From Eremomyces bilateralis CBS 781.70 (Eukaryota; Ascomycota; Dothideomycetes; Eremomycetales; Eremomycetaceae), in NCBI RefSeq assembly GCF_010015585.1, contig NW_022985093.1:112254-176253 (forward strand): DNA of 64,000 bases, given 5' to 3'. Of the stretch, positions 5,723-34,729 are shown one piece after another (the first letter of the stretch is position 1; each line of letters begins with the position of its first letter). Under the pieces are notes generated by a model. The model was not told where the DNA came from and did not search any database. It saw nothing but the letters and a program-made list of their open reading frames with translations. The position numbers were made by a program, and so were the translations under genes.

Positions 5723-8400
5723 CCCTTACTAGGTTTTCATGCCACTTGGCGTGGCCGCGCTAGCACCACCCCCTGAAGCACTTAGCTTAATAGTTTGGAA
5801 GAATTACGAGTTCTTACTTGTCAAGATGTCACATTTGATTTGTATGCAATCCTCATATAGTATAAAGTTGTCGCACGTGATGTGCTAAAATGGTTGGGAG
5901 TGAGGTGCTGTTGTTCCAGCAGCGAAGTTGTTGTATTGTGTAAGTTGTGTGTTCTAGCTGAATGCCTGGTCCCCAGGCCCTACAGATATACGAGAGTCAC
6001 GGCAAGATTATTAATGCAGTTTGTAGCCTTGGACTCCTAGAGCTCATGCCTTGGCCTGCGACAAAAGTAAATAGACACAATTACCATAGAGGAATCTAGT
6101 AGTATCTAGCTAGGTCTTTGACTGTGGAATGGTTCTATACAACTAGTACAGAGAGAAAATCCTTCTCCACAGATCTCACAGTAAAAGAAGGTCCTTCGGT
6201 CCTTGATTTGGTTATCCCTTAGCTTTTTCCACCTACACAACCAACACCACCGTCGCATCCCTCTTGAAATTCGTGCCAGGCGATGAACACCACTTCTAAG
6301 AGTAGTATGATACGGGAACTCCGTATTTGGCCGTACGTACGAGTTACCGGATCTCCTGATCCCTCGGTTGCCTCGAATTGAGGACCTTCCTGCTCATTGA
6401 AGCCCTGTACTACTCGGGGACCATGACCATCTGAGATACCTTTGATGACCATATTCCAGGCAAGCTGTAGACGGAAATCCTTAAGGCTCTGTAGGTATCT
6501 AATATTCTGCTTTCGAAACTGACATGTACCGAGGATATGAGCGTTCGAAGCAGTCGTATCGAGTATCCAGAAGAGAATAGGATACCATGTTTTCTGGCTA
6601 ATTAGGTGGGATGTGAAGTAAGCTCGGCGTTGATCCGCGATATCGACGCCTCCCATAAAGCTATTGTATAGTATGGCAGCTTTAGGTTGTAGAACCGGTA
6701 TCTCGTGGACCCCAGGAGGGTAGATTTGATCAAGTTCTCGCTGGTACGCAGCTGTACCAGTCGCGGGACGCCTCCGAGGTACCCAATCATTCTCTTCTGG
6801 CTCAAAAATGGTATGGAGGAAACGTATGAGTACCCGATCCTTCCATAAGAGGCTGGCAACATCGCGAACGCAGAGGAAGTCCTGCTTTTGAAGCGGCCAT
6901 CTGCAATTGTCCTTTACCTCTTTGAAGTGCTGTAACGGGTACTCTTTATACGACGTCCTAGTCGTCCCACAGGCCCCAATCCTCATTTTTCGAAGGACTG
7001 AGAGCAGGCGAATATCGGTAAAGTAGTTATCCATAAAGATAACAAACTTGCGGAGACTGACAGGAAGAGAGGCTACCAAGGTAACAACCGCCTTTGAGGT
7101 AGCCGTAAGCTCAAGATTCTCGTATCTATGGGGGGGCTGATAGTTTACACCATGGATTGATGATGTATCCTTCCTTCCTCCGGTATCAAAGCTTCCTCCT
7201 AAGGTAAAAAGAAAGCTATAAACATAGCCTCTATCGGCGAGGGCAAGGATTTTATAGCCAACAGGGATAGGCTTGCCTTTAATAGAGACAATCTCCTTTG
7301 ATCGACCCGTAAACTTGACCATAATCTCATCGATTGAGACGTAGTTTAAGGGGAGATATACTTGGTTGAAGCGAGCACCTAAAAGCGAGGCAATTGGTTG
7401 TACTTTGTCGAAGACGGAGGTCGGCTGCGGCTCTGTATCGGGATCAGAGGTGGATAATCCGTTTGATCTGCTTCTATCTTCGAAAGGACATAAACCTAGA
7501 GATACAGTGAAGAGGCCGCTGGCCATTCCTACTCCTGAGATCCCCTCGAGAAGCGATATTAAAGGTACCCATGTAAAGGACAAGGCCCAGCCATATCCGG
7601 ATATGGCCGGCGGTAACAGGCCTAATCGAGATTTCATGCTTCTGGGCGTACCGGTTGGAGTGCTCTGCGATCGTCTTATAAATGCCTTCATCAAATAGCT
7701 GGGAGAAAAGGACAAGCGGAAGATCCCATCGCTCAGCAAGTTCTTCGAAGGAAGCGGGAGGGCGATCGTGAAGCATTGGGTCTAGGGACTGACCATTGCC
7801 ATGGAAAATCCCGCAGCCAGTACAACCTGGAGTCCCACAGGATACACTCTGGGTGTCGGTAGCGCAGAGAGGGCCTTGGACGCCAATGAAGAGATCAAGC
7901 AACGCTTCGGGGTAGTGATAGTATGAGACGTATCCTTGCATCTTTTTAAAGTACGCCCCAGGCTACCCTAAAGGCCTCTTAGTAGCAGGATCAATAGCTA
8001 TGTAGGAGGCATCCCCAGGTTGTCCAATTGGCGTAGGAAGAGATCCAGCGGAGGATGTTGCAGGCTCAACCTGAGGTTGCTGTAATTGGGACTCCGGATC
8101 CGCTTCCGCAGCGGTGGTAGCATCAGACGGCACTCTCCATACAAATTCAGTGGTGAGCTCATCCTCAGATACCTCGTCATCGGAAGCGGTGGCGTCTGAA
8201 GCTGATGGGAGCATCGAAAGCATAGTTGATCGCTTTGATTGTACAGAGTAGAGTTGCAATGAGCAATGGAGCTGGCAAAAAGGCGCAAAGGCTGTAATTT
8301 TCGTACCGCGTTGTGATTGGAGCCTATTAGTACGCTAACTTAGCGCCACCAAGCCCCTCCCGGCACTGAAAAGGAATGGACCAGATGGACCGTGTATGGG
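5723..8400 (-). mobile_element. piggyBac-superfamily DNA transposon, degenerate
   Basis: The 2,678-base element lies in the SDR gene. Its ends form imperfect inverted repeats: CCCTTACTAGGT at the left, and a right end whose complement reads CCCATACACGGT (9 of 12 identical). The flanks share only GT (5721-5722 and 8401-8402) rather than the TTAA typical of piggyBac. Apart from the transposase at 6219-8259 it holds only short non-coding ends of about 500 and 140 bases. The limits come from the host gene: bases immediately outside both ends belong to one SDR reading frame. Confidence 0.75.
6219..8259 (-). pseudogene. piggyBac (DDE_Tnp_1_7) transposase, broken
   Basis: The DDE transposase has three collinear segments on the minus strand. 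An acidic, serine-rich N-terminus (8259-7966) ends at an in-frame TAG (7965-7963). The next segment (to about 7480) shares its frame and contains the WDLPLVLFSQLFDEGIY and IRIWLGLVLYMG motifs. The reading frame then shifts by one position around 7480-7500. The third segment (down to 6219) holds the catalytic core: SIDEIMVKFTGR (first Asp region), FIMDNYFTD (second Asp) and NSFMGGVDIADQRRAYF (third acidic and conserved GGVD motif). The order and the motifs are diagnostic of piggyBac. One stop and one frameshift make it non-autonomous as assembled. A short cysteine-bearing C-terminus such as the PGBD zinc finger is not obvious. Confidence 0.85.
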
Positions 8401-8412
8401 GTAGCGATAACA
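8401..8412 (-). pseudogene. Ten-base central remnant of the SDR gene between two transposons, plus target duplications
   Basis: Twelve bases of host gene remain between the piggyBac element and the copia 5' LTR. GT at 8401-8402 repeats 5721-5722, and TAACA at 8408-8412 repeats 22962-22966. Read on the minus strand after HV of the 5' fragment, they supply the codons for I-A-T leading into GCREDRL of the 3' fragment. Confidence 0.75.
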
Positions 8413-8625
8413 TGTCACAGAAAGTGACAGAATCTGTGTTTCTTGACGTTTCCCCACTGCTTCATTCCGTATTCGATTCTATACCCCTATTCTTTCCCTT
8501 TTTAGGGAATAGATCACCATTGTAAACCATATAAAATAGCTGCAGGAACAGCCTGTTTTCGTAGGATCCGGCTCTTCAGGATCAAGTTCAATCTATCTAC
8601 GCTCTTTTGGAATCTAACGGGGTTT
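8413..8625 (+). repeat. copia 5' LTR, first part
   Basis: It begins TGTCACAGAA and matches the first four fifths of the LTR at 22700-22961, including TTTCCCTTTTTAGGGAATAG and the TATAAAATAGC promoter-like box. The match stops abruptly at GGTTT, where the 9.35 kb insertion begins. The rest of this LTR resumes at 17976. Confidence 0.9.
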
Positions 8626-8633
8626 TGTCGCAA
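8621..8633 (+). repeat. Left end of the 9.35 kb insertion: target duplication GGTTT and terminal inverted repeat TGTCGCAA
   Basis: GGTTT (8621-8625) belongs to the interrupted copia LTR and is repeated at 17976-17980. TGTCGCAA (8626-8633) is the perfect inverse of TTGCGACA at 17968-17975. The uninterrupted 3' LTR contains the GGTTT once at the matching place. Confidence 0.85.
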
Positions 8634-10836
8634 TTCGCGGGGTGATGATTAAGCACGTTCGCTGCTTTTGCTCAGTTGCTGTAGAGTCACAACGCAAGTT
8701 GGTCTTGACGATTCCCATTGTCTCCTCAAAAGGAGATCTAGCTAGTAAAACAGTTGAAGATAATTAAATACAAGGTAAATAAGACGACGGCAGGTGGACC
8801 GCCAGAATGGCAGGCTTGCCCAACCGTGCATGCTCATTGGCCGAAACCCATGATCCGAAGGTTTCCCGCCTGCTCTGCCCAGTTCGCCTGCTTCGACCTC
8901 CCATATAAAACGCGCATTCCACCATTCGTTCTTCTGCCGTTTTATTTCATCGCTCTCGTCTTCTTCCCCTTCCCTCTCCTCTCAAACCCCTCAACTACTA
9001 CGGCGACCGAGAATCCACGACCGCTCTTCATTCTTCGCTTGCTCCCTGCTCCACTGCGTCTCTGGTTTCGCTGCGTTCCCTAGCCGCCCCGCTCCCTCCT
9101 GATCGCCGTCTCAAGTGTTGCACTCTGTCCACACGGCGCTGCGGTCTCTTCTGCTGGTCATTTTATTCTCAAGGAGCTCGTCTGCCTGGATTGCTAGGCA
9201 TGCCTCCCGTTCCCTGGACCGTTTCTCTCCCTCTCGAGAGTGAGACGGTCGGTCTCCCTAAATCCGAATCCGAATCCAACCTCCTCCCTCTCCACGCTCC
9301 TGCCCAAGTCCAGCAGGTGGCCGGCCATCTCGCTCACATCCTGCTCGCGAGCTCGGAGTGGCCCACACAGCCCCCGGCATTGGGGCCCGTTGATTCCGTT
9401 CGGCGACGCCGACTCCAGCGCCTTGGTTCACCGTCATCCTCAATCCGAGTCATGGAAGTCGGTCACAAGGTCCACGGCTCATGACGATCCTAGACCCCTG
9501 TATCATTGTTTTCGTCGCTTTGCTGCCTACGTGGCACTGCCGGACTTGTGGGCTGAGCCGGTCTGGATGAGGCGGAGGTGGGGAAGGAAAAGCAAGGCGA
9601 CGGCGAGACGAGCAGTGGCGGTCGCGTTCATGCTCAAGGAGGGCCACGAGAGGGCGAGAGGGCGAGACGGTGAGACGGTGAGAGGCATACGCATGTTACG
9701 CTTCCTCCTTTAGCTCCTTGGCTTTCCGGAAGTAGTTGGTGAGTTGGAAATCTATCTGACACCCGGCGATCCCGAAGGATCTTCAAAAAACCTGCTCATC
9801 TCGCCTAGCCTGCTGAGCCCGCGTCTCAGGCAGCAGCTGGAGCGGTCGAGGGGATAGGTGTGGTCGGAGCGCAGGGGATTGAAAGGGGCGAAGGGACTGG
9901 CTCAAAATCTGGGACGTTATGGAACGATGACGCTGTCACCAGACACACATGATGCAGCATGGGCCATGGTTCTGCCCCAGAAAGGCCGCACCGCCATCAG
10001 GCGCGAATCTCGGACTGAGTTTCCCGAGAGAGCGCATATGACCGAATACGAGCCAATTCATACGTCGCCGTTCATGCGTTAAGCATCTCCGGCCCTTGTA
10101 TGGCTGAACGTTAGGGACGATGTGTTAGATTACGCGCTCGCCCCTTCGTCAAGAGGGAGGTTATCGGATGGAATACCCTAGAATGGTGGATTCGCGCGGA
10201 CGGAGCTCTTGTTCCGGTCCAAGATTGAGCTACCCTTTTCCGAGCCGCCTTTGGAAGCGGCAAGTTCGGAGGCTGAGCAGCTCCATGTCGCACATTATCG
10301 CATGACGAGGGCTTTCGCGCCGCTTGAAACGCGGGATCCTTCAGGGAACGAAGGCATGACGCGGGCCTCATTCAAAGGCTGCAATGATGCAATTCAGGAT
10401 CGAAAAGGGGACACGTCAGCTCAGCCTCCTTCGCTCCGGCAGATGGGCGAGCAGGCGATATCATGCTTGATTGACTTTCTACGCTTCAGCTGCACATGTT
10501 TGTTCCATCCTTCTACCTAGAAGACCGCTGCAACTGCTCCAGGAAATGGGTATGCTCGTCTAGCGCTGGCGATGGCATTTCATTCCCTTACCCCTTTGAT
10601 TGAATCAATAGCCTCGGTCTTATCAGGCTCACTCTTCTCACAAGATCCGATTTAGAAGCGCCGAGCCAGAGCTGGCGGATAATCCGCTCACGGGCGAGCT
10701 GGATAAACAAGGCGAGCCTGCTTCCCGGCATAAAAGGTTTCCCTGCTCCCTGCTCCCTCCTTTCAAAGGTCAGCGACTCCTCTACACTTTTAAAGGATCA
10801 CACGTATTCTAGAGTGAAAACTGCGCAAAAACGGAC
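8634..10836. other. Long GC-rich leader-like region inside the 9.35 kb insertion, no supported gene
   Basis: A TATA-like box (CATATAAAACGC, near 8902) is followed by a pyrimidine-rich stretch (about 8930-9100) that looks like a fungal promoter and 5' leader. A second TATA-like box (GGCATAAAAGG, near 10729) lies about 100 bases before the SANT/Myb gene start. Open frames at 9191-9484 and 9240-9713 lack recognisable domains and have the composition of non-coding GC-rich DNA. A short degenerate repeat of GGGCGAGA/GGTGAGA occurs near 9650-9680. Confidence 0.4.
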
Positions 10837-12943
10837 ATGGCGGTCACGACAGCCCCTTCTTCCTTCGATGCGCAATCGCAAAATCAGTCGCCTGATAACT
10901 TTCGCAATTATTCTGACCCGCCAAAAAGCAGATGTGGAGCTGATGCCATTCTTGACATCTCTTTTAACGACCCATGGACCGATATTGATGGTATTCTGAA
11001 GGGCGAAGGCTTGACCGAGCCAAAGCCCACGCAGGAATCAGCGTGCGAGGCATTCACAGGAAGCTGTGCAGGTGAGTTACTAGAGATGCTGCGCGAACAG
11101 CTTCCGAAGAGGACCATAATCTAATCTCTCTTTAGATGCAGCTATACTTATCGAAGACAGCGAATCGGACACTGATTCCGAAGATGAGCTGCCTTCTCTT
11201 AACGCATTGTTCAGTTCGGGCTCCCAACCGGAAGTTGGTGGCACGCCGGTTGCAGATAGAGTCTGTGATTCGAGCTCGTCACAAGCGATAGAGAGCGGCG
11301 AAAGTCCGCCGTCTGGACCGAACGGCGAACTGTCTACTGGTGCCGACATGTCCTGGAGTGTTAGCGACTTATGTGAGCCAGTGTATCCCTTCCAGTGCTT
11401 CGCCCTATGCTAACGCAAATGGTAGCCAACTATTCTGCTATGGAAGTCGGCGTCTTTGTAGCGGACCATACGCGACTGTCATTTGAGAGCCTTGTTCCAT
11501 CTACTGAAACGGCCGAATCTAGCAGCCTGCAACCTTCAGGTATGGCCTTACCGCGCTCTAGATTAGGCATAACCCCGACTGACAGTTTTGTACAGAGGAA
11601 ACAGATAGCATCGCCGACGAAAACTATGACCCTCTAATCAATCCGTCGTTCCTTGAACAGAGGAAGCGGGTCCGTTCCTCCTCCCGCACGACCCCGTCCA
11701 CCGACATCGATGTTGCGCTCGGCACTAGATCACAACATCAGATGGATAGGCAACCGCCGGAGAAGCCGCGTCCGGCGAAGCGGTCGAGACGATCTCGTTC
11801 CAGCGAGGCGCCACTATCCGTCACCGCTGTCCCCGATCCTGGGGTCGACTGTTCAGGGCGGCGCGAGACTCCAAGCATGTTTCATCGTGTAGGGAGGGAA
11901 CAATCGGGCTCTGTCGATGCCGAGGCATCTCCCCAAGACAGTGATGAGAGAGACGCAGCGGATACCAGCGCTGGCCCACGACCTGCCTCGTCTCCCCGTG
12001 CAATAAGGGCGTACCAGCGACGTGCGACCGACGATCCGATTCACGAGCATAGCCGGCTAGGAGACACTGCTGACTATGGTCGTGGCTGTGGCACGGACGA
12101 AGAGCACGCCGTGGATGATGATGACCACGGAACAAGGTCGCCGAAACCGCCACCAGGGCGACGGCATCGAGGCAAGATCCAACGCAGACGTCGGCCGTTC
12201 CAGTCCGATGCTGAGAGGAACACTCGCACGCTCGCACGGGATCAGCAGATTCCACGCTTCTTAAGCAGTCCGCATCCCGACTCCTCTGCACCGAGAAGAG
12301 ACGATAGCGGCCCACAGGACAGTGACAAGAGCGCACCCTTCACCATGGCCCGGCATACTGTGGTCGACATTTCTCTTCGTCCAACGCCGGGGACACTCTC
12401 CTGGCAGCTACGATGAAGGTTGATAGCGATATGCAGGCAATTTCTTACGGCACGCTGCTCAAGCTAATAGAGAATATTTTGGGCAATACAGCGAAGATAC
12501 ACGACATGACACTCAAACCGCTTACAGCAGGCCAATGGCTGTTAACCGGGTTCCTTCACAGTCATTACGTCAACGCCGGCGTTACCACGCGGCACGAGTT
12601 TACACCAAATCCGCGAAGGGATACTACCGCCGCGACCACTATCCCAATGGCCAACACTCCCGACTCAGAGGATGACAGCAGCGTGGGCGGGAGCGATAGT
12701 AGCGTCAGTGACGATGATATCAGCGATAAGAAATACATTGACCAAGGTGTGGAAGGCGGAACGCGCCGTCGGTGGGCGCCTTTAGAGGAACAGCGTCTGT
12801 TGGCTTACAAGGCCGAGGGGAAGCCATGGCCATGGATCTCTAGAAAGTTCCCGGACCGGACACCAGGTGCTGTGCGCGTCCGTTGGCACATGTTACATCG
12901 GTTGCAGGAAGGAAAGAACGAACGAGGCAACGGACCCACCTAG
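10837..12943 (+). pseudogene. SANT/Myb-like DNA-binding protein gene with one frameshift
   Basis: This is a putative nuclear DNA-binding protein. Four exons (10837-11071, 11136-11372, 11426-11539, 11596 onward) splice with GT-AG ends into an acidic, serine-rich N-terminus starting MAVTTAPSS and containing DPWTDIDGIL. A highly charged middle follows, with an RPAKRSRRSRSS nuclear-signal-like stretch. Near 12380-12416 the frame shifts: one frame stops at 12414-12416, while the next frame continues the protein sense (from AGDTLLAATMKVDSD) to 12943. The C-terminus holds a SANT/Myb-like helix-turn-helix, RRRWAPLEEQRLLAYK followed by WPWISRKFPDRTPGAVRVRW, with the expected tryptophan spacing. Either the gene is newly broken or there is a sequencing error. 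SANT/Myb genes of this layout have been reported, as I recall, as companions of fungal Starship elements. That link is unverified. Confidence 0.6.
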
Positions 12944-13753
12944 CAGGAGGACAACTCTTCGAAAAGGTCGGGTTTTGGATACGTGAAGAAGTGAAGGAAT
13001 AACGTCTTCTTCACTTAACGAATTAACGATCCAGTCTTTGCAGTACTCACAATTTTATCTATGCTGCTGAATTCAATCTTCACTCAATGCCACTTCCGAC
13101 ACTTCCTAAGATCTACCCTAGATGAAACGCGAGGATACTACAATGATTCCTTTAAATCCATACAGCGCATTCGAAATCGGTCCTTAAGGATAGCCGAACG
13201 TATCGACGCAAGCCCACTCGCACAGCAGCATGCAGAGATGCAGCCTTCACGTGAGCAACAGTGTCTTTCCTGTGACAGATTCGACTTGGAACTCAGGAAA
13301 TGGGTGGACTCCCGTTCTCGACAACCGGCATATTTTCGTAGTCACTTCGCCGGCCAAATGGTGGATGACGAAAGCGGCACCCGATCTTTTTGGGGAGCCT
13401 TGAGATTCTACTATCTAGGATCTAATTGGCCCAGATTGTTCCGGATGAAATAGAACAAGATGGCGATGGCCATTGTTACAGCCGCTAGCGAAATCGCCTT
13501 CCGCCTTTTACACCTCCAGGAATTCTCACTGAACAGCCCACTTTCAGGTCATGGCGTAAATCTTTACGCCACGATTCTTAGTGATCAATTTCCAAGTGTA
13601 CAACCACCTCCCCATCATGGTTCATTTACTCGTTTATCGAGAAACAATATTTAAGTCTACAAGGAAACTCGATTCCTGAAACACTCTCCAGTCGCTGGTC
13701 TGAATAACTTACTTCGCTAGGACCTTCATCGATAGCGATAGACCGTTTCGGAT
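12944..13753. other. Region without a recognised gene; one anonymous open frame
   Basis: An open frame at 13061-13453 (+, 130 codons, cysteines in a CLSCDRFDLE segment) has no recognisable domain and could be chance or a decayed gene. Nothing else is supportable. Confidence 0.3.
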
Positions 13754-13999
13754 GTTCGCAAGCAACGCCTACAGAAGCTAGCCAATGGTGCCCAAAAGTC
13801 GTTCGCTGGTTGTGCCCTCCTCCTCGACGAGAATCGGCTCTTGTTCAAGCAAAACATTGAAAGAAATTGTCGCAAATCGACACGGTCAACGGTAGTCGGG
13901 AAGGAGAAAATGATAAGTTAGAAGGACATTGTCGAGGCCAACATGAAGCATGATGCGAAGGAAGCTACGGCAGTATGGATAGGGCTACAGATGCACTAA
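13754..13999 (+). mobile_element. pogo/Fot1-type transposase C-terminal relic
   Basis: The + strand encodes the tail of a fungal Tc1/mariner pogo (Fot1/Tan1-like) transposase. KQRLQKLANGAQKSFA and ALLLDENRLLFKQNIE match the conserved C-terminal helix found after the DDE domain in these elements, followed by KSTRSTVVGKEKMIS and a lysine/alanine-rich end. One in-frame TAG follows KMIS, and the frame closes at 13999. The DDE domain and terminal repeats are absent. It is a plain DNA-transposon fossil carried inside the 9.35 kb insertion. Confidence 0.7.
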
Positions 14000-14219
14000 A
14001 AACAGCGGCCCCACCAGTAGCGTTGGCACGTGGAATGACAGAGTTTCATTCTTACTGACCTGTCCTTCACCGATGCGGGGTAGCTTCAATGCACAGAAGA
14101 GTTAAATTGGGCCATTCCTTGTCTTGAAGTATTTTTCCGGGCTGACCTCCGCGCTCTGCTGCGCAACACTGATTAGAGTCGATTCCCGGAGTTCATACTA
14201 TCAAGCCAGATATTCCACC

Positions 14220-16187
14220 ATGGCAGATATATATGAACAAGTCTTTACCCTTAGTCCGATACCGAGTGTTATCCTCAATCCTGAGCTTCGCATCCAAAGA
14301 GCTTCGAACAGCTTCCTTCACCATACAAAGTTGCGCGTGGACGAGTTGTGCGATAGTAACTACCTCGAGCTACTCAAAGATCGAGTGCTGATATCAGACA
14401 CCGATATGCGTCACGTCCGCGACGTCATCCATGGGACGATTCAGACGCTGGAAGTACAAACAGGCCGGCGCATCCGTACAAGCCCAGGGGCAGTGTGGCA
14501 ACTGCGTGTGGTTCCAACGGTCATGAACGGTGCCCTCCTCTACCTGCTGGTAGAATGGCTGCAAGCTGCAAAGAGAGAAGAGAAAAACAGTCTAATCGGC
14601 AATGGTTTGGCAAGAAGCGAGGCACTCCGACTACTGGTAGGAGCTGTCAAGGATTATGCCATATTTTTGCTTGACACCGAAGGCATCGTGCTGACTTGGA
14701 ACGCCGGTGCCGAGCTCAACAAGGGATACAAGCCTCACGAAATCATCGGCAAGCATTTTTCTACATTCTATAGCGAGGAAGACGTAAGAGCAAACAAGCC
14801 TGCGAAAGAACTGGAGGTCTGTCTGCTTGAGGGAAGGGTGGAAGATGAGGGGTGGAGGTACCGCAGAGACGGCACCCGCTTTTGGGCCAATGTCATCATC
14901 ACAGCGATCTACGATGTCGACGTTCATGTGGGATTCGGTAAAGTTACTCGGGACTTAACCGAGCGCAAGGCAGCCGAATCTCGCCTTCTCGCCGCATACG
15001 AGGAGAGCGCAAATCTAAAATCGGAGTTCCTTGCCAACATGAGTCACGAAATCCGGACACCAATGCACGGGATGATATCAGCTAATAAGCTACTTCTCGA
15101 CACTCAGTTGACCGAGGAACAGCGAGATCTGGCAGACATCATCAACGACTCCGGAAAAATCATGTTACAGGTCATCAATGACATTCTCGACTATTCTAAG
15201 CTGGTGTCCGGCAGTTTCTCACTCTCCTCGAGCATCGTCGTCATCACCTCTATTGTCGGCTCCGTGATGCGCAACTTCCAGACAATTCTCAAATCTGGCG
15301 TGTACTTTCAAAGCTTTTCTGCCGAAGGTATTCCCAGGTCCATACAGGGCGATCCTCTTCGCTACCGCCAGGTCCTCCAAAATCTTGTCAGCAACGCCGT
15401 CAAGTTCACCGACAAGGGTTTTATAGGCATCCGCACATGTGTCCATTCAGAAGACGACCACACGTATACAATCAAAACCGAGGTTCAGGATACCGGGATT
15501 GGCGTTTCTGAGTCTGCAGCCAGCTCTTTGTTTACGCCTTTCCGGCAGCTTGACAATACCACCACCAAGACGCACCAAGGCACAGGTCTTGGCTTGTCCA
15601 TTTCTAAATCTTTGGTCGAGCTGATGGGCGGACAGATATGTTTCGCGCCCAACCCCGAGCGCAGCGGCAGCGTATTCTGGTTTACGGCAAAGTTCAATAA
15701 GATAAATATCTTGGATGGAATGGAAAGCCTTACAGCCCAATTTGATGGGACAACCCCGTTGACTCCGAATCCGGACGACTCCACCTTATACCGAGAATAT
15801 TTTGGAACCAAGAGTCTTCTACTCGCCGAAGATAACATTATCAATCAGAAGGTTATGGTCAGAATGCTACACTCACTCGGTTTTATGCGAGTTGACACAG
15901 CGGTAGATGGTGCTCAAGCAATCAACTTGGTTATTAATAGTCCAAAGAATTACGACCTCATCTTAATGGATATCAGCATGCCCGTCCTTGATGGCATCGC
16001 AGCAGCGACCCAACTCAGAAGATCTGGGTGTCGACTACCGATCATTGCCGTCACGGCGAATGTCCTGAAAGAAAGTCGAGAAGATTTTCGTGCTAAGGGA
16101 TTAAATGACTATGTTCCAAAACCTGTTGACAGAAATCTCTTGACAAAGATTCTGATGGAATGGCTGGTTCTAAAGACGTCCACGTGA
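14220..16187 (+). CDS. Hybrid sensor histidine kinase (PAS-PAS-HisKA-HATPase-REC)
   Basis: This is a two-component hybrid kinase that senses a signal through PAS domains, autophosphorylates on histidine and passes phosphate to its own receiver, feeding an HPt/response-regulator relay. The start at 14220 is in a good context (ccaccATGG) and gives 655 residues; an in-frame ATG at 14124 would add 32. PAS-like segments lie at about 8-115 and 135-250. The phosphoacceptor is His276 in FLANMSHEIRTPMHG. The N box is VLQNLVSNAVKFT, the G1 box DTGIG, the F box FTPFRQLD and the G2 box GTGLGLSI. The receiver has the acidic pair in LLLAEDN, phosphoacceptor Asp584 in LILMDISMPVLDG, and Lys634 in VPKPVD. 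No transmembrane segment or intron was seen. It resembles the Fos-1/TcsA type. All catalytic residues are present although it sits inside an insertion whose other genes are broken, so it may be recently acquired cargo. Confidence 0.93.
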   Translation: MADIYEQVFTLSPIPSVILNPELRIQRASNSFLHHTKLRVDELCDSNYLELLKDRVLISDTDMRHVRDVIHGTIQTLEVQTGRRIRTSPGAVWQLRVVPTVMNGALLYLLVEWLQAAKREEKNSLIGNGLARSEALRLLVGAVKDYAIFLLDTEGIVLTWNAGAELNKGYKPHEIIGKHFSTFYSEEDVRANKPAKELEVCLLEGRVEDEGWRYRRDGTRFWANVIITAIYDVDVHVGFGKVTRDLTERKAAESRLLAAYEESANLKSEFLANMSHEIRTPMHGMISANKLLLDTQLTEEQRDLADIINDSGKIMLQVINDILDYSKLVSGSFSLSSSIVVITSIVGSVMRNFQTILKSGVYFQSFSAEGIPRSIQGDPLRYRQVLQNLVSNAVKFTDKGFIGIRTCVHSEDDHTYTIKTEVQDTGIGVSESAASSLFTPFRQLDNTTTKTHQGTGLGLSISKSLVELMGGQICFAPNPERSGSVFWFTAKFNKINILDGMESLTAQFDGTTPLTPNPDDSTLYREYFGTKSLLLAEDNIINQKVMVRMLHSLGFMRVDTAVDGAQAINLVINSPKNYDLILMDISMPVLDGIAAATQLRRSGCRLPIIAVTANVLKESREDFRAKGLNDYVPKPVDRNLLTKILMEWLVLKTST

Positions 16188-16465
16188 ACTCGGCCGACGT
16201 ACAAGAGGTCACTTAGCACGGAGCATCATGATACGCGGAACAGCATAGATAATCCAGCATCGACGAACAGCACAGCAAACAGGCCCGATAGGATAGAGCT
16301 AAAGCACTAGAGGTGCAAATGGTGGAGATGAACAAGAGGGTTCTTGTCCCGGAGCATCCAGACACGAAACAATCTGGCCTTCACGTGGAGAGGACTCGGC
16401 GGACAAACAGAAGCTGTAGGACCGATATAGGATAGTGTATAACTGCAGATGAATATCCAAAATCT

Positions 16466-17407
16466 CTACGCAGCCAGGCAGCACCTCCATGTTCGAAACC
16501 CCCATGTCTCTTCAGAAGAACATGTGCCAGCAAATCTCAAATGATACTGGCTTGCATCTTCATACTGAGCTCGGGGCCGTCGCTCTTGGTCAGTCATTGG
16601 CTTCATTGGGCACCCAAGAGCGACAAAGCCCCAAGCTCCACTCCGAATATCGGTCGTCATCCAGCTGTCGACCGTGGCTCGATCTCCTCTAAACAGAGAT
16701 GCGTCCGGGGACTTAGAGTTATCGTGTCGGCGCTCTAGAGGGGAAAATCTAGGTGCCGTCGTCCCTAAATGATATGGTCGGGATAAGACAGAGAGTTCGG
16801 AGGGTTCGCGTGACAACGTAGCACTCGCTACACCCATTCGATTGTTCGCATCCTCGGCGGCCCGCGGCTTCGAGATGAGGATTTCAATGACAAGCGCGTC
16901 CCGTTCACGCTCTTTCTGTAGCTACTTCAGTAGTTCGGTCAACACTGTAAGTCTCGCTCCCACAACATTCTTCTCTTGGCGCAGTTCTCGATTTTCGTTG
17001 GTCAATATCATTACTTCCACTCGGAGACTCTCGTCCGTCAAGGAACCTGCGCTCATCTTCGCTCGTTTTTCAATTGGCATCAACACCTCCCGCCGGAATT
17101 TGGGTCCATGGCCTTGGGCCCTCGAGGAACTGAGACTCCGTACCTGGGCATAGGGGATCGTTTTCGCTAGCGTAATCTCTCGCGTCAATGATTCCTACGA
17201 TGCTGTCTGCTGCTTCGATTTCGGTATCGGCTTCGGGGTTGTTTTCATTACTAGGAGCGTAGCTACTTCATCGTCCGAGATGTTGAAACGTGGAGAAGGG
17301 GATTCTCTCCTCATGAGTTCAGATGGATTGTTCTTGGCATCGGATAGCCTGCGTTGTCTCAGGTAATCCTCCTGTGTCTGAGTATCCCCGATGATCCTTG
17401 CTGTCAT
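16466..17407 (-). pseudogene. Unrecognised protein frame, open except for two in-frame TAG codons
   Basis: A single minus-strand frame runs from an ATG at 17407 to 16466 (about 313 codons) with two in-frame TAGs, at 17195-17197 and 16922-16924. The first part reads NNPSELMRRESPSPRFNISD and is basic and serine-rich. The middle has a coiled-coil-like segment (LRVEVMILTNENRELRQEKN) that continues past the second TAG as LQKERERDALVIEILISKPR. The rest is basic and low in hydrophobics. No family is recognised. A frame interrupted only by two identical stops suggests a once-coding gene, or one read with suppression, but introns spanning the stops cannot be excluded. Confidence 0.4.
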
Positions 17408-17967
17408 TGTTCTGGTGACTGTGGTTGCCTTTGGCCCTAGTTGTCTTTGGCCCTGGTGGTCTTGGATCGTGTGGTTGTCTCTGGGATTGGTGCTACGTAG
17501 TGTTAGGTGTTCACGTGCGATCGTATTTCAGCATTGACCCTCCGAGGCAAGAGGGGCCTAGCGCCAAGACTGTCCTGCGTAAAAGTCACGTGAGACATCA
17601 TATCGTGACATTATGACACCTGTTGTACAATACCCAGGACGCTGTACCAGGACACGTGAAGTACTGAGACTGTAGTCCCAGATTACTGGTGCGAGGTTCC
17701 ATATCAGGTTCGGTGCTTTCCTAGTAGCCTGGGCGGCTTTATTATTACCCACGAATTCCCGCCCTCAATGGCTCGGATCTAGGGATGTGTAAAGTGGGAA
17801 AACTAAGGACTTTACCGTAAAATAGCCTTAGATTTCTAGAAAACGGAGGTCAATCTGCCGTCTTTTTGTTTAAAAGGGGAAAACACTAAGCTGTCCTAAA
17901 TAGGCCTAGCCTAGGGGTAATTGGCAGTGGAAGGAAAGTTAGGGCAGTAGAAACCAACAGGGGCATC
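17408..17967. other. Right flank of the 9.35 kb insertion, no gene seen
   Basis: It contains a short near-repeat of TTGTCTTTGGCCCT/TTGCCTTTGGCCCT (about 17436-17460) and AT-rich DNA toward the end. No coding or RNA feature was recognised. Confidence 0.5.
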
Positions 17968-17980
17968 TTGCGACAGGTTT
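17968..17980 (-). repeat. Right end of the 9.35 kb insertion: TTGCGACA plus target duplication GGTTT
   Basis: TTGCGACA (17968-17975) is the perfect inverse of 8626-8633. GGTTT (17976-17980) repeats 8621-8625, after which the copia LTR sequence TTCCCACCG resumes. Confidence 0.85.
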
Positions 17981-18037
17981 TCCCACCGTATCGCGGCATT
18001 AATCACCTGATTGAGCGAAACCGCTATTTATCTTACA
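17976..18037 (+). repeat. copia 5' LTR, second part
   Basis: It matches the last ~60 bases of the 3' LTR (ATTAATCACCTGATTGAGCG and onward) and ends with the canonical CA before the primer-binding region. It completes the LTR whose start is at 8413-8625. Confidence 0.88.
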
Positions 18038-18361
18038 GTTATGCGCCCAATTATCGCTTAAAGCACCATAGACGACATTAACAGATGGTTCTATCGTGTC
18101 TTTCCCTCTTGTTCTCTCAAATTATATTGACGTTCGCTTATTGGAAAGTCTATCGTTTCATCTCCAAAGTTTACCTCTGCAAACGACCTCGCAGTGATCA
18201 TCAAGGCTGCTCTACCTCTTAAATCCCCAGCGGATTGGCGTGACTGGTACAACTTCGTCAAGTCCTACGGAAATCGAGTGAGAGTATAGAAGTACATCGA
18301 CCCTACGACCGAGGAAGATCCCGAGGAACCCCAGATATACAGCAAGGAGGAATACAACAAA

Positions 18362-21300
18362 TTGACGGAGTACGACAGGGACCAGATCGCTCAATCGAGA
18401 AAGCTCGAGGAGAATGTTCACAAAGCGAAAGTCAGGATAGGAGATATCATCTTCGCAATCGTACCTGAGGAAGCGAGGCGTGGTTTCTCTATCAACGATA
18501 CACCACGTCAAATGCTCTCCTACCTCAAGTCTCGATATGGACCTGACGAAAACCAGTACGAGGAACTGGTGGAAACTGCCTGGGAACGCCTTCGCGTCCG
18601 TCCAAAGCGGATGAAGCTACAAGACTGGATCCTCGAATGGAAACACTTTAAGGAATACGCAGAAGAGCTAGGGCAGGAAACCACCTATACCGATCTGAAG
18701 CTTATCCGAGAACTCATCAAGATCTGCAGACGTGAAGATCTTGACCGATTTGCAACTCGATCTGAGGATGCTATATGGGTTGCAAGAGAACCAGGAGGTA
18801 ATCCGGCGCATCTCAAACTGAATCATCACATCGAGCTCTTTCTAAAGACGTACCCTATGGAGATACCGAAGCCTATGAAAGGGGCACTTTTCGCAACTCT
18901 CCAAGGAGAGACTCTAGCGCAGACGTCTCAACCATCACATATGCCCGCTACAGCGGCATCCCCGTCGTCGACTCCCGTCCCCCCTCAACAAGAGAAACGA
19001 GAGAAGACTCTCCCAACCTGTGTGTGTGGGGAGAAACACTTGTACAGGCGTTGCCCGTACTTCAATCGAAATATTAGGCCCTCAGGTTGGAAACCGAACT
19101 CTAAGATCAAAAACCAAATCATATCTCACTTGAAGGCTAATCCAGAGGCCAACAAGTCTCTACGGAGGGTCCTTAAAAGAGAAGGAATCAGTTTTCCTGA
19201 TTGGTTCCCAGCGGAACCATCCTCTACCACATCTACGAATTCGGAATCGCGTGAGGATGGATCCTCTCATGCGTTCGCTACGCGAGTGATGGAAGAATCT
19301 CAGGCGTTCGCCATGCAGGCGTTCTCCGCATTTGAGCATACAGAGACCAACGAAGGAAGGCCATACGACCAGAGTTTCTACATGGACAACCTGGCTTCTC
19401 ACCACATCTGTGCAGACATTACACGTTTCACGAACTACGTGTCTACAGATGGTATAATGAAGACCGGAGACTCGTACTCATCCTATGTGGGCATAGGAGA
19501 CGTTAAGATCCCTGTGGTAGGAAAGCACGAGAAACAGACATTCATCACTATCCTCAACGTCTACCATATTCCGGGTTTCCACATTAATATCGTTTCAGCC
19601 AGGATGTTCCGAAGGAAAGGCTATGTACTTGATGAGTATTCCCAGGCAATCCGCAAGCTTGACGATAGGTCTCTCCTTTGCCATATGTATCTTCGCGATG
19701 AATATTGGACGTTTACGAGCGACGTATTAGTCCCTGTACAGAAGGGAATCGCATTCGCGACACGATCGTCTTAAATTTCTATCTCAACCGCTCCTGAGGA
19801 GGTGTGGCACCGTCGGATGGGACACGTTGGCATAGACAGCGTGTGAAATCTGGTGGGATCCGTACACGGTGTGTCAGTTACCATAAACCCTCCATCGCAT
19901 CCAGGCTCACAGAGTCTATGCGAGACATGTACGGTCTCTCAGATGAAAAAACAAATCTCAAGAGTTCCGCAGCATCGCGGTACTCGCCCGTTTGAAAAGA
20001 TCCACGGAGACCTCATCGCCTTTAATACAGGACTCTCAGATGAGACGTAGGAGCGTCATTTCTACTGTGGACACGCACGTTTTTATTTCGTCTACCCGAT
20101 TCCAAATCAACGTAAGGAGACTATCTCACGATGTCTCACTAAGACCCTTAATACCATTAGGACTATAGGCTATACCGTCCAGTTTCTTCACTTTGATAAT
20201 GAAGCTGCGATCGAGTCTGACCATGTTACTTCTATCATTGAGGACCACGGAATCATCCTAGAACTGTCTGCACCGAAAACTCTAGCACAGAAAGGGCCAG
20301 CGGAAAGGTCAGGAGGTATACTTGTTACCGTCGCACGCAAAATCTGCGCAGACTCTCCTCTACCAGAGAAGCTATGGACCTATTTCGTGAAACACGCAGG
20401 ATATCTCCTGAACAGGGCTCTTGTGCAATCCCCTCAGTGGAAAACCCCCTACGAAGCTGTGTTTGGTAGGAAACCAAACCTCTCACACCTCAGGATGATA
20501 GGATCAAAGGCCTACGTCCTAAAGACGGATATCGCAAAGAAGGACAAGATGGAACCACGTGCATCAATTGGTTTCCTTCTTGGATATGAAGCTACAAACA
20601 TCTTTAAAGTCTGGATTCCAGACGTTGGGAGGGTAATCACATCGCGAGACGTCCGTATCGACGAGACTATCCGGTACGATCCAACAATTGATAGGAACTC
20701 CACCCTCCCCCTCATAATCGGTTTGCGCTCCAGGCATTCCTTGACGATATTGAAATCGACATACGTGCGTATATCGATGCTTTCGAAAATACCCCGGTGG
20801 TAGGTAATTACCGACCACTCGCTCTCTCAGACCCAGGACTGTCTACGCCCGCGGGAGAAATCGCGCCCGACACACGGATAGACAGGTCAACTGCAAATGT
20901 CCGCGGATCTCTTTCTTATCTTCCTACCCCCTCATCATCGAGGAACCCAACACCGGCAATACCTGCTCTACATTCCCCTACTCTTATCTCATCTGGGAGG
21001 AATGAGGACTATTCTGGCGAACCAGACGTTCCACCGGACGCTCTCATCGCAAGCCAACAGTCGGTGGAAGGGCCTACTTTACAAGTCGGTGGCCTAGACA
21101 TCAACAGTACGACGGACACGGATGGGACCAGAGGAGGTAGTACGCACGATGATTACACAGGATTTACTAGACGGTCATTATCCACGCCCTCAGCCATCGG
21201 AGGAACACCTATACCGGCCCTCTAAGAGGAAGAGGAAGAAGAGAGGCAAATTCATGAACAGATCGCTTCAAATATTGCCTCCCCCGTAGGAGCGTATCAA

Positions 21301-22521
21301 GAGAACAGACAAAGGAAGAGTGCTTGCGAGAAACACCCATCTCAAAAGGCTAGGGACACGATGGAGACAAAGGCCTTTAAGAACTAGACGAGATATGCCT
21401 CACGTAAACAGGCGCATCTCACGATGATGCTCAATGCGACCCAATTGGCCCCATTACTCTATGCGTTCGCAACAACACGTACGGATCGCATTCATCGGGA
21501 TAATCTTCCTCTACCACTAAAACATTAGGGAGAAGTCCTATCGCGCCTAGACTCGCACCACTGGATCCAAGCATCGAAAGGAGAAGTCCCTATTGTGATA
21601 AGAAACGGCACGTTTGAACTCGTTCCCATACCGAAGAACGATCCTGTGATTCCTCTCAAATGGGTCTTTACGTACAAGTTTGATGCCGACGGATATCTCA
21701 TCAGGTATAAGGCGCGAATCTGCGTACGAGGATATCTCCAAGAAATTCACGACCGGGACGCACTGTACGCTGCGACAGGCGCATACACCACCTTCCGAAT
21801 CCTGATGGCCCTTATCGCTGCACGATTCAATCTTCTCGATCATCAGCGTCCTCCTCTTACTCCGCTCTCCACATCATTCGACAATTACGAGCCAAATCCT
21901 AACGCAACGAAGGAACAGGTCACGGGATACCAGCAGCGCATAGGATCTCTCATCTATGCTGCGGTAATTTCACGCCCAGATATCTCTCACGCGGTGAGCC
22001 GTCTAAGCGAGTTCAATACACGCCCTAGACCTAAGCACCGACGAGAGGCTGATCGTTGTATCTCCTACCTATATGGAACTCGTTTCCACGCGATTGAGTA
22101 CTCTTTCGACTCTTTCGACTCTGACCCATCGGTCTCTTCACGACCTTTCCGGTCCTATACAGATGCATCTTTCCCAGACGACCGCACCACAAGGAAATCG
22201 TCTCAAGGATATCTCATCTCACTTTTTGGTGACCCTATTGCTTGGCAGACATCCAAGCAAAAGAGTATCACTACCTCTACCACCGAAGCGGAACTCCTCG
22301 CCGTCTCTTACAGATCTAAGGAGATGATGAGGATGATACGTCTTTTCCGTGATCTTCAATTCGATCCGGAGTGCCCTATCGTCGTTGAATGCGACGATGA
22401 CCAAACGGTCGGTATCATTACCAAATCCATGCCCATTCTCACCACCAAACTACGCCACGTAGACATTCATCAGTTCTGGTTGCGTCAGGAGGTGGAACGG
22501 AAGGACATATGCGTGGAATAG
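18362..22521 (+). pseudogene. copia gag-pol coding remnants (gag, protease start, integrase, reverse transcriptase, RNase H)
   Basis: This is fossil retrotransposon coding. Parts in copia order are a gag-like region with a cysteine/histidine knuckle-like CVCGEKHLYRRCPYF (18362 to about 19300), and a protease-like start (SFYMDNLASHHICAD). Integrase-like sequence follows (about 20050-20700, with LHFDNEAAI and GPAERSGG motifs), then a reverse transcriptase start (PLKWVFTYKFDADG) and RNase H (YTDASFPDD, TTSTTEAELLAVS). The whole is broken at several places and is not expected to make a functional polyprotein. Confidence 0.85.
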
Positions 22522-22699
22522 ATTCCGTCAAACAAACAGGTGGCTGATGGGCTCACGAAGATCCTCTCTATCGCGAAGCACCGTGTCTTCTTTAACCAGA
22601 TAGGTCTGCAGGACATCTACGCACTTGTTGGAGGACCAAAGGGATCGTGAGATCTATACAATCCAGACATCCCCTTCAACGGTGATATCTGAGGAGGTG

Positions 22700-22961
22700 T
22701 GTCACAGAATATCTATATTTCTTGGCGTTTCCCCACGGCTTCATTCCGTATTCGATTCTATACCCCTATTCTTTCCCTTTTTAGGGAATAGATCATCTTT
22801 GTAAACCCTATAAAATAGCTGCAGGAACAGCCTGTTTCCGTAGGATCCGGCTCTTCAGGATCAAGTTCAATCTATCTACGCTCTTTTGGAATCTAACGGG
22901 GTTTTCCCACCGTGTCGCTGCATTAATCACCTGATTGAGCGAAACCGCTATTTATCTCACG
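22700..22961 (+). repeat. copia 3' LTR (complete)
   Basis: The 262-base LTR begins TGTCACAGAA right after the purine tract and ends immediately before the TAACA target duplication. It is the uninterrupted reference copy that shows where the 5' LTR was invaded. Confidence 0.9.
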
Positions 22962-22966
22962 TAACA

Positions 22967-28873: not shown

Positions 28874-31247
28874 ATGGCCGAAGACAAGCTCGAACCCATC
28901 GATGAATTCAACGTCCGTGAGACGAAGCCGAAGAAGGTCGCGTACTTCTACGACAGCGATGTCGGGAACTACGCGTACGTAGCAGGACATTATATGAAGC
29001 CGCATCGCATTCGAGTCGCTCACTCGTTGGTCATGAACTATGGCTTGTACAAGAAGATGGAGATCTATGTTAGTTCATTCCCTCCCTCATGGCGGTCTGC
29101 GGCGGATGCGACACCTTGAAATCACTTGCAATTGAGCTCATGCATGAATATGAGCCAACGGTATGTCTGTCTTAGAGAGCAAAGCCAGCCACTAAGTACG
29201 AAATGACCCAATTCCACGCCGACGAATACATCAACTTCCTCTCGACCGTCACTCCCGACAATATGGACAACTACTCGAAGGAGCAATCCAAGTACAACTT
29301 TGGAGACGACTGCCCCGTCTTCGATGGTCTGTTTGAGTTCTGTGGTATCTCCGCAGGTGGCTCAATGGAAGGCGCTGCGCGTCTGAACCGGCAAAAATGT
29401 GACATCGCAATCAACTGGGCGGGAGGGCTACATCACGCGAAGAAGTGCGAGGCGAGCGGGTTTTGCTACGTCAACGGTGTGCCACCCCGACTTTCCACAT
29501 GAGAAACCCAGCTAATCCTCACTCCCAGACATCGTCCTTGGCATCCTCGAGCTCCTCCGATTCCACAAGCGAGTTCTCTACATCGACATCGACGTCCACC
29601 ATGGCGATGGCGTCGAAGAAGCGTTCTACACCACCAACCGCGTCATGACATGTTCTTTCCACAAATACGGTGAATTCTTCCCGGGCACCGGCGAGCTCCG
29701 CGACATCGGAGTGGGCGATGGCAAGAATTATTCCGTGAACTTCCCTCTCCGGGACGGCATCACCGACAAGACCTACAAGAGCGTTTTCGAGCCCGTCATC
29801 GAAGCGATCATGCAGTGGTACCAGCCTGAAGCGGTCGTCTTGCAGTGCGGCGGAGATAGCTTGTCGGGAGATCGTGTGGGCAGTTTCAATCTCACGATGA
29901 AGGGCCATGCGAACTGTGTGAGATTTGTCAAGAGCTTCAATCTGCCCACTCTGGTCCTTGGTGGCGGAGGCTACACGATGCGGAACGTGGCGCGGACATG
30001 GGCTTTCGAGACCGGGGCCCTAGTCGGACAACTAATGCCTACCGTCTTGCCTTTTAACGAATACTACGATGTAAGCCACTCCTTCACTCCTCATCCTACT
30101 TCGGGCCACTCCAACATGATGCCAGTATTTCGCCCCTGACTACGAACTCAACGTCCGTGCCTCCAACATGGAAAACAGCAACTCTCCAGAATACCTCGAC
30201 AAGATCAAATACCAAGTCATCGAAAACATCAAGCGCACCGCCTTCAACAACTCCGTGCAATTGACCGAAATCCCCGGCGAGCTCCGCCCCGGCATCTCCT
30301 CCGAAGACGACGACATGCGCGACGACGAGGACGAGGACGCCTTCCCGGACATCCGCGTGACCCCGCACCGCGAAGACCAACGGACCCACGACGACCGCGA
30401 GTTCTACGACAGTGACAACGAGGAGACGGAGCGGCCCCGGGCGCGACGGCGCCTCAGCCACTTGGTTGGGCGCATGATACTGCAAGACGAGCACAAGGAC
30501 ACCGAATCCCGCGACGCCGTGATGGCGGACAGCGAGGACATCCTCGCCGAGATCGCCAAGGTCGACGACGACATGGACGAAGACCCTGACGCCCTACACA
30601 CCAACCACCCCATCGACCCCACCAACCCCACCGTCGCCCCCATCAACGGCACCCCCACCCTCCGNNNNNNNNNNNNNNNNNNNNNNNNNNNNNNNNNNNN
30701 NNNNNNNNNNNNNNNNNNNNNNNNNNNNNNNNNNNNNNNNNNNNNNNNNNNNNNNNNNNNNNNNACCCTCCCCGCCCCCATCGGCACCCGCGCCGAGAAT
30801 AAAACCATCGAAGCCCTCGCCGCCTCCCTCCCCACCGACCCCTCCGCCTCCCCCACCGTCTTCCCACCCGCCGCATCCCAACCACCAGCTGCCGAACTCG
30901 CACCCGAGCCAACAACCAGCTTTACCGAACTCCCAGCTGAGAGGCCGACCGCGGACGAGGATGGTGACGTGGCCATGGACAAGGACGACGCGAAGGACGC
31001 CGTCCCGGGCGTGGAGAAGGTGGAGGCGGAGACGGAGGGTGCAGACGTGCCTGCGAAGGAGACGGATACACACGTGGAGGCGGAGAAAGATGCGGAGATG
31101 GGGATGGAGGGGACGAAAGGGACTGTGGCTATGGCTACGGTTGCGATCGTGGATGCGGGTGCGGATGGGGAACAAGGGAGTAAGGAGGGGGAGGGGAGGA
31201 AGTTGGTGGAGGCGGAAGCGGAGAGCGGGGAGAAGGCGAGCGAGTGA
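28874..31247 (+). CDS. rpdA: Class I histone deacetylase RpdA (RPD3/HDAC1 type)
   Basis: This is a zinc-dependent nuclear lysine deacetylase of Sin3/RPD3-type corepressor complexes. Four exons (28874-29068, 29176-29476, 29529-30070, 30126-31247) join in frame to about 719 codons, including an assembly gap. The catalytic domain spans residues ~18-390. Hallmarks are [14 protein letters not shown], the active-site [24 protein letters not shown] (zinc Asp and His), and [17 protein letters not shown]. The C-terminal extension is acidic ([18 protein letters not shown]), then proline- and glutamate-rich, far longer than in yeast Rpd3. Long tails of this type are characteristic of filamentous ascomycete RpdA. 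The tail contains 100 Ns (30665-30764). The frame is open on both sides of the gap, but true length there is unknown. Confidence 0.95.
30665..30764. other. Assembly gap of exactly 100 N inside the rpdA tail
   Basis: One hundred undetermined bases, the conventional size for a gap of unknown length. It lies between low-complexity C-rich coding sequence (proline/threonine codons). Confidence 0.99.
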
Positions 31248-33600: not shown

Positions 33601-33620
33601 TGGAGATGCCGCATGTACTA

Positions 33621-34062
33621 TGGTTACAGGCAAAAGTATTGTTAGCGCGGCGCTAATCAGGGGTATCCAACCTAAACCGTTTTTGTCCTTTTTTCATTAC
33701 AAATTAGATATAGATTTCATTATCGTGTATAGCCTCCATTTGCGCCTATCACATCCTAGCATCTCTAGCCCATTGATTCGACAACTCGTACAGGAATTCC
33801 TCTAGTATAGCCTCCCAAGCATCGTTAATTCCCTCCCGAAGCTGGTCATAAGTTAATCAGGCATCCCCAATTCCCTATAGTGGTCCTGGATCTAGTCCTT
33901 CATCTAATTCCATACTGTCTCAATAGGATTCAGGTCCGGAGAATGAGCAGGCTAATAGATGGTGAAATCTATATCCAATTAGTAATGGAAGAATGAACAA
34001 AACCGGTTTAGGTTAGACACCCCTGATTAGCGCCGCACTAACAATACTTTTGCCTGTAACCA
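33621..34062 (-). mobile_element. Tc1/mariner deletion derivative (442 bases, ~60-base inverted repeats)
   Basis: The ends TGGTTACAGGCAAAAGTATT (33621) and its inverse (ending 34062) form near-perfect inverted repeats of about 60 bases flanked by TA (33619-33620 and 34063-34064), the Tc1/mariner target. The minus-strand interior retains the transposase C-terminus. PAHSPDLNPIETVWN contains the third catalytic Asp region (SPDLNPIE). After several stops and a frame change, LREGINDAWEAILEEFLYEL follows, the usual mariner end. The DNA-binding domain and the first two catalytic acids are gone, so it is an internally deleted, non-autonomous copy that could be mobilised only in trans. Confidence 0.88.
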
Positions 34063-34064
34063 TA

Positions 34065-34729
34065 GTAAACGTGATTGAAGATATCCAACTTTTCCGATGC
34101 CTGGAAACACATAAACTGAGCTATCGTTCTACTTATTCACCACTGAAATCGGAGGTTAGATTGGTTAAATTCGGACGAGATCAGATGCATCATGCGTGGG
34201 ACGACTGCAGTCGGATCACCTTCGCGAAAGAAACAGGCCAATATTACGTGATATATCCATCAGTACCATGCGATCGACCGCTGTTTTCGGCCCTCTAAAA
34301 TTATGCAAGTTTCCAATGCACCAGTCCACTGGTCCCGACCACTACTCAAGGCAGGGCCTTTCCGAGTTTACCCACGTTCCCTCCTTTCCCTAGAGGGCGA
34401 TAAGAAGGAATACGATGTTACCGAATGGCTGGAACACTGGCGACCTGGCGCTACCGTAACCTCTGCGTCCAGAGCTATCGAAACCCCCCCTCCAGATGAC
34501 AAGGATCTCCGCATGGTTGTAGCAGCTGCGGGGAAGGTATCATTGTGTGAGGTTCAACACATGTCCCTAGCCTGAGAGGCCTCGGGTTCGACAGCCGATG
34601 GATTGATTAATGCTTGAGTAGGTATAGGTAAGTACCTTATAAGGTCCCTACTCCCTAGGGTACTTGCGAATTCCCGGGAACCACACACAAACCTTCAAAC
34701 TACTTACTGCTACTCTACCGGTCATCGTC
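34065..34729. other. Intergenic, one anonymous open frame
   Basis: An ATG-initiated frame at 34303-34575 (90 codons, YDVTEWLEHWRPG) has no recognised domain. Otherwise this is the upstream region of the next gene. Confidence 0.4.

Follow-up and report, generated by a model that had tools for sequence, protein, structure and literature searches.

Gene-carrying fungal transposons of a size similar to the one considered here are already known. In the account given in PMC6710886, a hAT element of Pseudocercospora fijiensis carries a captured host gene, for histone H3, between inverted ends in full-length copies of 9.5-9.9 kb, and has a hAT domain, inverted ends of 20 bp, an 8-bp target duplication and hundreds of copies damaged by repeat-induced point mutation (RIP). 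ToxhAT, as portrayed in PMC11857905 and PMC12506042, is likewise a gene-moving fungal transposon, of ~14 kb, and differs from the present case in being a hAT element by name. Here we describe an insert of 9,350 bp that interrupts a long terminal repeat (LTR) of a copia retrotransposon and carries a complete hybrid histidine kinase, in a window of 64,000 nucleotides from the ascomycete Eremomyces bilateralis CBS 781.70 (contig NW_022985093.1, positions 112,254 to 176,253; all coordinates below are those of the window). The ends of the insert are its unusual part. In contrast to the P. fijiensis element, it has 8-bp inverted ends and a 5-bp duplication, gives no RIP signal, and contains no match to a transposase in the 68 of its 79 open pieces of at least 55 amino acids that were scanned with Pfam.

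Some fungi possess large numbers of hybrid histidine kinases, mainly through gene duplication (PMC4965123). How such a copy arrives at a new location can seldom be seen. In this window a complete kinase occupies a site that was empty when the copia element inserted, so that movement by a transposable unit becomes testable. Judged by titles and the first parts of abstracts, a search of the literature on kinases and other genes as cargo, which covered few subscription papers, gave no histidine kinase carried by a fungal transposon among the papers listed.

Junctions of the insert with the copia element

The copia element spans 8413-22961, with LTRs of 270 and 262 bp that align with a single 8-bp indel between them. 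Its 5' LTR is interrupted between 8625 and 17976, while its 3' LTR is unsplit and provides the empty site. The features that define the junctions are the following:

8408-8412, no strand: left copy of copia's own target duplication, TAACA (right copy at 22962-22966)
8413-8625, + strand: left segment of the interrupted copia 5' LTR (by alignment and by BLAST, 8424-8626 against 22701-22905, 94.6%)
8621-8625, no strand: left copy of the target duplication GGTTT (sequence)
8626-17975, no strand: the insert, 9,350 bp (LTR alignment, BLAST and flanking repeat)
8626-8633, + strand: left terminal inverted repeat, TGTCGCAA (sequence)
8776-8803, + strand: candidate subterminal inverted motif that agrees with 17845-17872 at 22 of 28 bases, no more than suggestive
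17845-17872, - strand: counterpart of 8776-8803 in the candidate subterminal motif (22 of 28 bases)
17968-17975, - strand: right terminal inverted repeat, TTGCGACA (sequence)
17976-17980, no strand: right copy of GGTTT (sequence)
17976-18037, + strand: right segment of the interrupted copia 5' LTR (BLAST and alignment)
22700-22961, + strand: copia 3' LTR, unsplit, the empty site, with GGTTT once, at 22900-22904

In the 3' LTR the empty site has the sequence AATCTAACGGGGTTTTCCCACC, and the occupied site reads ...GGGGTTT, then TGTCGCAA...TTGCGACA, then GGTTTTCCC. The first-pass annotation, made from the letters alone, had proposed a precise insertion of 9.35 kb with inverted ends and a clean GGTTT duplication, and its coordinates proved exact to the base: the insert entered precisely, after copia, with a duplication and inverted ends. 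A fourth T in the target also permits a possible 6-bp duplication, GGTTTT, with lopsided ends, but the symmetric 5-bp reading is simpler. Because TAACA is intact on both flanks of copia, the order of copia first and insert second is coherent. The LTR pair differs at 13 of 262 aligned sites, a Kimura two-parameter distance of 0.052. At the end of the 3' LTR (22955-22961) the terminus is CG, that of the 5' LTR being CA, with both TAACA duplications intact.

The insert begins and ends with an 8-bp inverted repeat that is flush with the LTR-defined junctions and has TG..CA ends. With the junctions fixed, the chance probability of a flush 8-bp inverted repeat is about 4^-8, and that of a 5-bp repeat about 4^-5. 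Pairs of 8-bp inverted ends that are flanked by 5-bp repeats and lie 3-15 kb apart number 12 in the window, the pair of the insert included, so the motif alone proves nothing, and its weight comes from the flush fit at junctions set by the LTRs. Since both junctions were set by the LTR alignment, independently of the end motif, a chance fit is very unlikely.

No direct or inverted repeat of at least 16 bp (11-base seed) was found in 8400-18200, a BLAST comparison of the window with itself (E 1e-3) gave no repeat confined to the insert, and the insert is therefore without an LTR pair. Direct similarity between its two ends was not above that of shuffled sequences either (155-982 of 1000 shuffles reached the score). 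The exact end patterns matched 34 and 8 stretches in the viral_contigs collection, but BLAST of the window against 43 loci gave nothing at E 1e-3, and we therefore take these stretches as chance 15- and 16-mers. A literature search for the strings TGTCGCAA and TTGCGACA returned no fungal transposon, judged by title among the matches listed.

Coding content of the insert

The insert holds the following genes and frames:

10837-12943, + strand: Myb/SANT gene with three proposed introns and a frame change near 12400
13742-13918, + strand: frame with a putative resemblance to the C-terminal tail of pogo transposases of fungi; no family match
14220-16187, + strand: intact hybrid histidine kinase of 655 amino acids, with PAS at 147-248, HisKA at 267-330, HATPase_c at 377-492 and a receiver at 534-644 (Pfam)
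16469-17527, - strand: 353-codon frame interrupted by two TAG stops, for which neither Pfam nor the PDB gave a match

An enzyme that could have moved the insert was sought in the open pieces by Pfam, the scan covering 67 whole pieces and the kinase frame, read both from 14124 and from 14220; the 11 others are alternative frames over the kinase gene. In agreement with the first-pass annotation, which saw no recognisable recombinase, none of the scanned pieces matches a transposase, integrase or tyrosine recombinase, although an old relic in shorter pieces could escape such a scan. Domains of gag and pol are equally absent from them, as is DUF3435, the domain of the captain that Starships have near their 5' end. 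Eight weak matches, all below their cut-offs (DUF6491, Elf4, NUDE_C, Nuc_deoxyri_tr3, PRIMA1, Bac_rhamnosid6H, VMAP-M2 and Hyd_WA), look like noise.

The kinase, already called intact in the first-pass annotation, has 655 codons before its stop and unites HisKA, HATPase and receiver domains in one chain, with the H-box SHEIRTP, the N-box, G1, G2, the phospho-accepting aspartate of the receiver and the PKP motif all present. Its G+C content at third codon positions (GC3) is 0.562, inside the range of 0.545-0.685 for the 12 frames of the window that were counted as ordinary host genes. A neutral insertion as old as copia would be expected to carry about 2.6% substitutions, which for the kinase frame amounts to about 51; with a nonsense fraction of ~4.5%, we estimate that two or three of these would be nonsense. 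An intact frame is thus mildly unexpected if the gene is neutral and as old as the copia element, or else the insertion is simply younger; it is evidence of selection only weakly.

The relatives found for the kinase are all remote. In the genome_contigs collection 199 stretches matched and 175 were confirmed, the best 80 of them bacterial by title, with 30-42% identity in the best segment; a single viral contig matched at 32%, and plasmids gave less than 60% throughout among the matches listed. No near bacterial donor was found by these pattern searches, which reach close relatives only and had no fungal collection among those searched. A PDB sequence search returned histidine kinases and receivers at the level of domains only (best 60 of 220). 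Structure prediction from the single sequence reached a mean pLDDT (predicted local distance difference test) of 32.3 and was not used.

The Myb/SANT gene appears to be decaying. We propose introns at 11072-11135, 11373-11425 and 11540-11595, our own choice among 11 candidate GT-AG pairs. The frame 11583-12413 then ends, and the overlapping frame 12326-12940 contains the Myb domain, whose Pfam score of 20.6-21.0 bits lies under the cut-off of 24.4 bits. A SANT/Myb gene with one frameshift, as it was first annotated, is consistent with these observations: the frame change is seen near 12400, and the domain match stays below the Pfam cut-off. The Myb frame had no confirmed relative in either collection (30 stretches matched its pattern in genome_contigs and 2 in viral_contigs).

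No Pfam transposase was matched by the 8 open pieces scanned in 13000-14100, and the pogo relic of the first-pass annotation is accordingly not confirmed, though the tail may lie outside the Pfam models. The frame that had been left unassigned, with its 353 codons and two stops, includes by our reading a coiled-coil-like stretch.

Described families and competing explanations

Integrase-type DDE enzymes make TG..CA ends with a 5-base stagger. The ends of the insert suggest chemistry of this type, yet they fit no described family fully. The ends of hAT5 elements are of the CAGNG type, and those of the insert, TGTCGCAA, are not. Where PMC12730594 describes these families, hAT5 does share the 5-bp duplication, PlavakaA has TGT..ACA ends that fit the insert but a duplication of 2 bp instead of 5, IS3EU is unlike the insert in both its 6-bp duplication and its TAYGG ends, and in the Nuwa Harbingers a Myb/SANT protein goes together with duplications of 3 bp. 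GingerRoot elements, as summarized in PMC10045372, have 6-bp duplications and only occasionally TG..CA ends. As for Ginger2/TDD, the insert has both the TGTNR ends (TGTCG) and the 4-5 bp duplication (GGTTT) that PMC2836005 gives for that group; the metazoan families described there, however, have inverted ends of ~50-180 bp, whereas those of the insert are 8 bp long and no inverted repeat of at least 16 bp was found. Ginger2/TDD also encodes an integrase-like transposase, which was not matched in the scanned pieces of the insert, though a non-autonomous derivative could lack one. With LTR retrotransposons (copia, gypsy) the insert shares the TG..CA ends and the short duplication, but it has no LTR pair and no gag or pol match; the earlier remark that ends and duplication recall integrase chemistry without LTRs is borne out to this extent. 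Because no described family is fully matched, we assign the insert to none.

We tentatively favour, with slightly less than even confidence, the explanation that 8626-17975 is one insertion of a non-autonomous, cargo-bearing transposon that was moved in trans, a possibility also raised in the first-pass annotation. A DDE or integrase-type enzyme encoded elsewhere would recognise the short TGTCGCAA ends and join them to a target whose two strands are cut with an offset of 5 bases, and repair of the 5-base stagger would give the GGTTT duplication; the unit so moved would carry the complete hybrid histidine kinase and the decaying Myb/SANT gene. The single event, the movement in trans and the type of enzyme are inferred, and so is movement as DNA, which draws on the introns proposed for the Myb gene, since these make passage of that strand through a spliced RNA less likely. 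With no LTR pair present, an intact LTR element is excluded, and LTRs that have diverged past recognition are unlikely because the older LTRs of copia are only mildly diverged. The subterminal motifs lean weakly in the same direction, since the score of their inverted similarity was reached by 7, 13 and 6 of 1000 shuffles when 200, 300 and 400 bp per end were compared. It is a further step, and one that we consider quite unlikely, to propose an undescribed family of fungal DNA transposons that work by integrase-type chemistry and have 8-bp TGTCGCAA ends and 5-bp duplications, and whose non-autonomous members capture and move whole signalling genes; if true, sensor kinases would spread as mobile cargo.

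Several observations count against a transposon moved in trans. There is one copy only, where several with the same ends, and some relatives with a transposase, would be expected of a gene-carrying non-autonomous transposon of the Pack type. At 8 bp, its inverted ends also fall well short of the 40-270 bp of Ginger1 or the ~50-180 bp of Ginger2 reported in PMC2836005. The subterminal match is marginal, as 19 of 927 pairs drawn at random from 23000-63000 score as high, and nothing emerges from the test with 150 bp per end, a length that takes in only part of the motif (the observed score is reached in 999 of 1000 shuffles). The interior also seems to resemble ordinary host DNA strewn with transposable elements. 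Finally, the combination of TG..CA ends and a 5-bp duplication is the ordinary mark of LTR elements, and the commonness of such elements favours the main alternative, namely that an LTR retrotransposon entered the copia LTR, recombined to a solo LTR and was later invaded by a segment with the kinase and Myb genes. Such ends and duplications are typical of LTR elements. Their duplications range over 3-6 bp in PMC10045372. A TATA-like box at 8904-8910, in the left part of the insert, is also expected of an LTR. We nevertheless regard a solo LTR as somewhat unlikely, because it requires two events and no gag, pol or integrase match was found in the scanned pieces. No inner duplication with inverted ends rose above shuffled sequences, but that search is powerless, the best inner pair scoring 25 and the real outer pair 26 where the best of 10 shuffles scored 24-28, so that little follows from its outcome.

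The heterogeneous composition and content of the interior, and the lack of a transposase match in the scanned pieces, would also agree with host DNA having filled a staggered break in the LTR, the duplication being overhang fill-in and the inverted ends a coincidence; such repair capture is distinctly improbable, as the flush 8-bp inverted repeat would arise about once in 65,000 trials, or a few times more often when the ambiguity of the boundary is allowed for. A small captain-less derivative of a Starship, moved by a tyrosine recombinase and with GGTTT as its direct repeat, is highly improbable: Starships share with the insert the cargo, the direct repeats and, occasionally, terminal inverted repeats, and many lie inside other transposable elements, but the insert is smaller, at 9.35 kb against the minimum of 15 kb quoted in PMC12134995, and neither DUF3435 nor another tyrosine recombinase was matched in the scanned pieces. 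Hardly credible, finally, is an assembly artefact that joined unrelated DNA to the LTR halves; the scaffold does carry runs of N elsewhere, but none near the insert, a duplication with flush inverted ends is not expected from an artefact, and the coherent outer TAACA duplication argues against misassembly. Neither GC3 of the kinase nor the RIP indices separate these explanations: in five parts of the insert TpA/ApT was 0.52-0.82 and the composite index negative throughout.

Surroundings of the insert

Of the internal frames of the copia element, one matches Pol_BBD and another RVT_2 (Pfam). The neighbouring genes include malate synthase, glutamine synthetase and a glutamine amidotransferase frame, and from its genes and elements the window has the look of a scaffold from an ascomycete-type fungus. 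Directly to the left of copia lies a piggyBac-like transposase (6219-7941, - strand), whose frame 6219-7739 matches DDE_Tnp_1_7 with an E-value of 4.1e-26; a second frame, 7474-7941, overlaps the first. Runs of N, which represent scaffold gaps or masking, are found at 30665-30764 and 53775-53806.

At 33616-34067 there is an element like a miniature inverted-repeat transposable element, with inverted repeats of ~105 bp that are 90% identical, apparent ends CTATGGTTACAGG and TA on both sides, which we take to be Tc1/mariner-like. Positions 205-290 contain short palindromic repeats of ATTCGTACGAATATT type.

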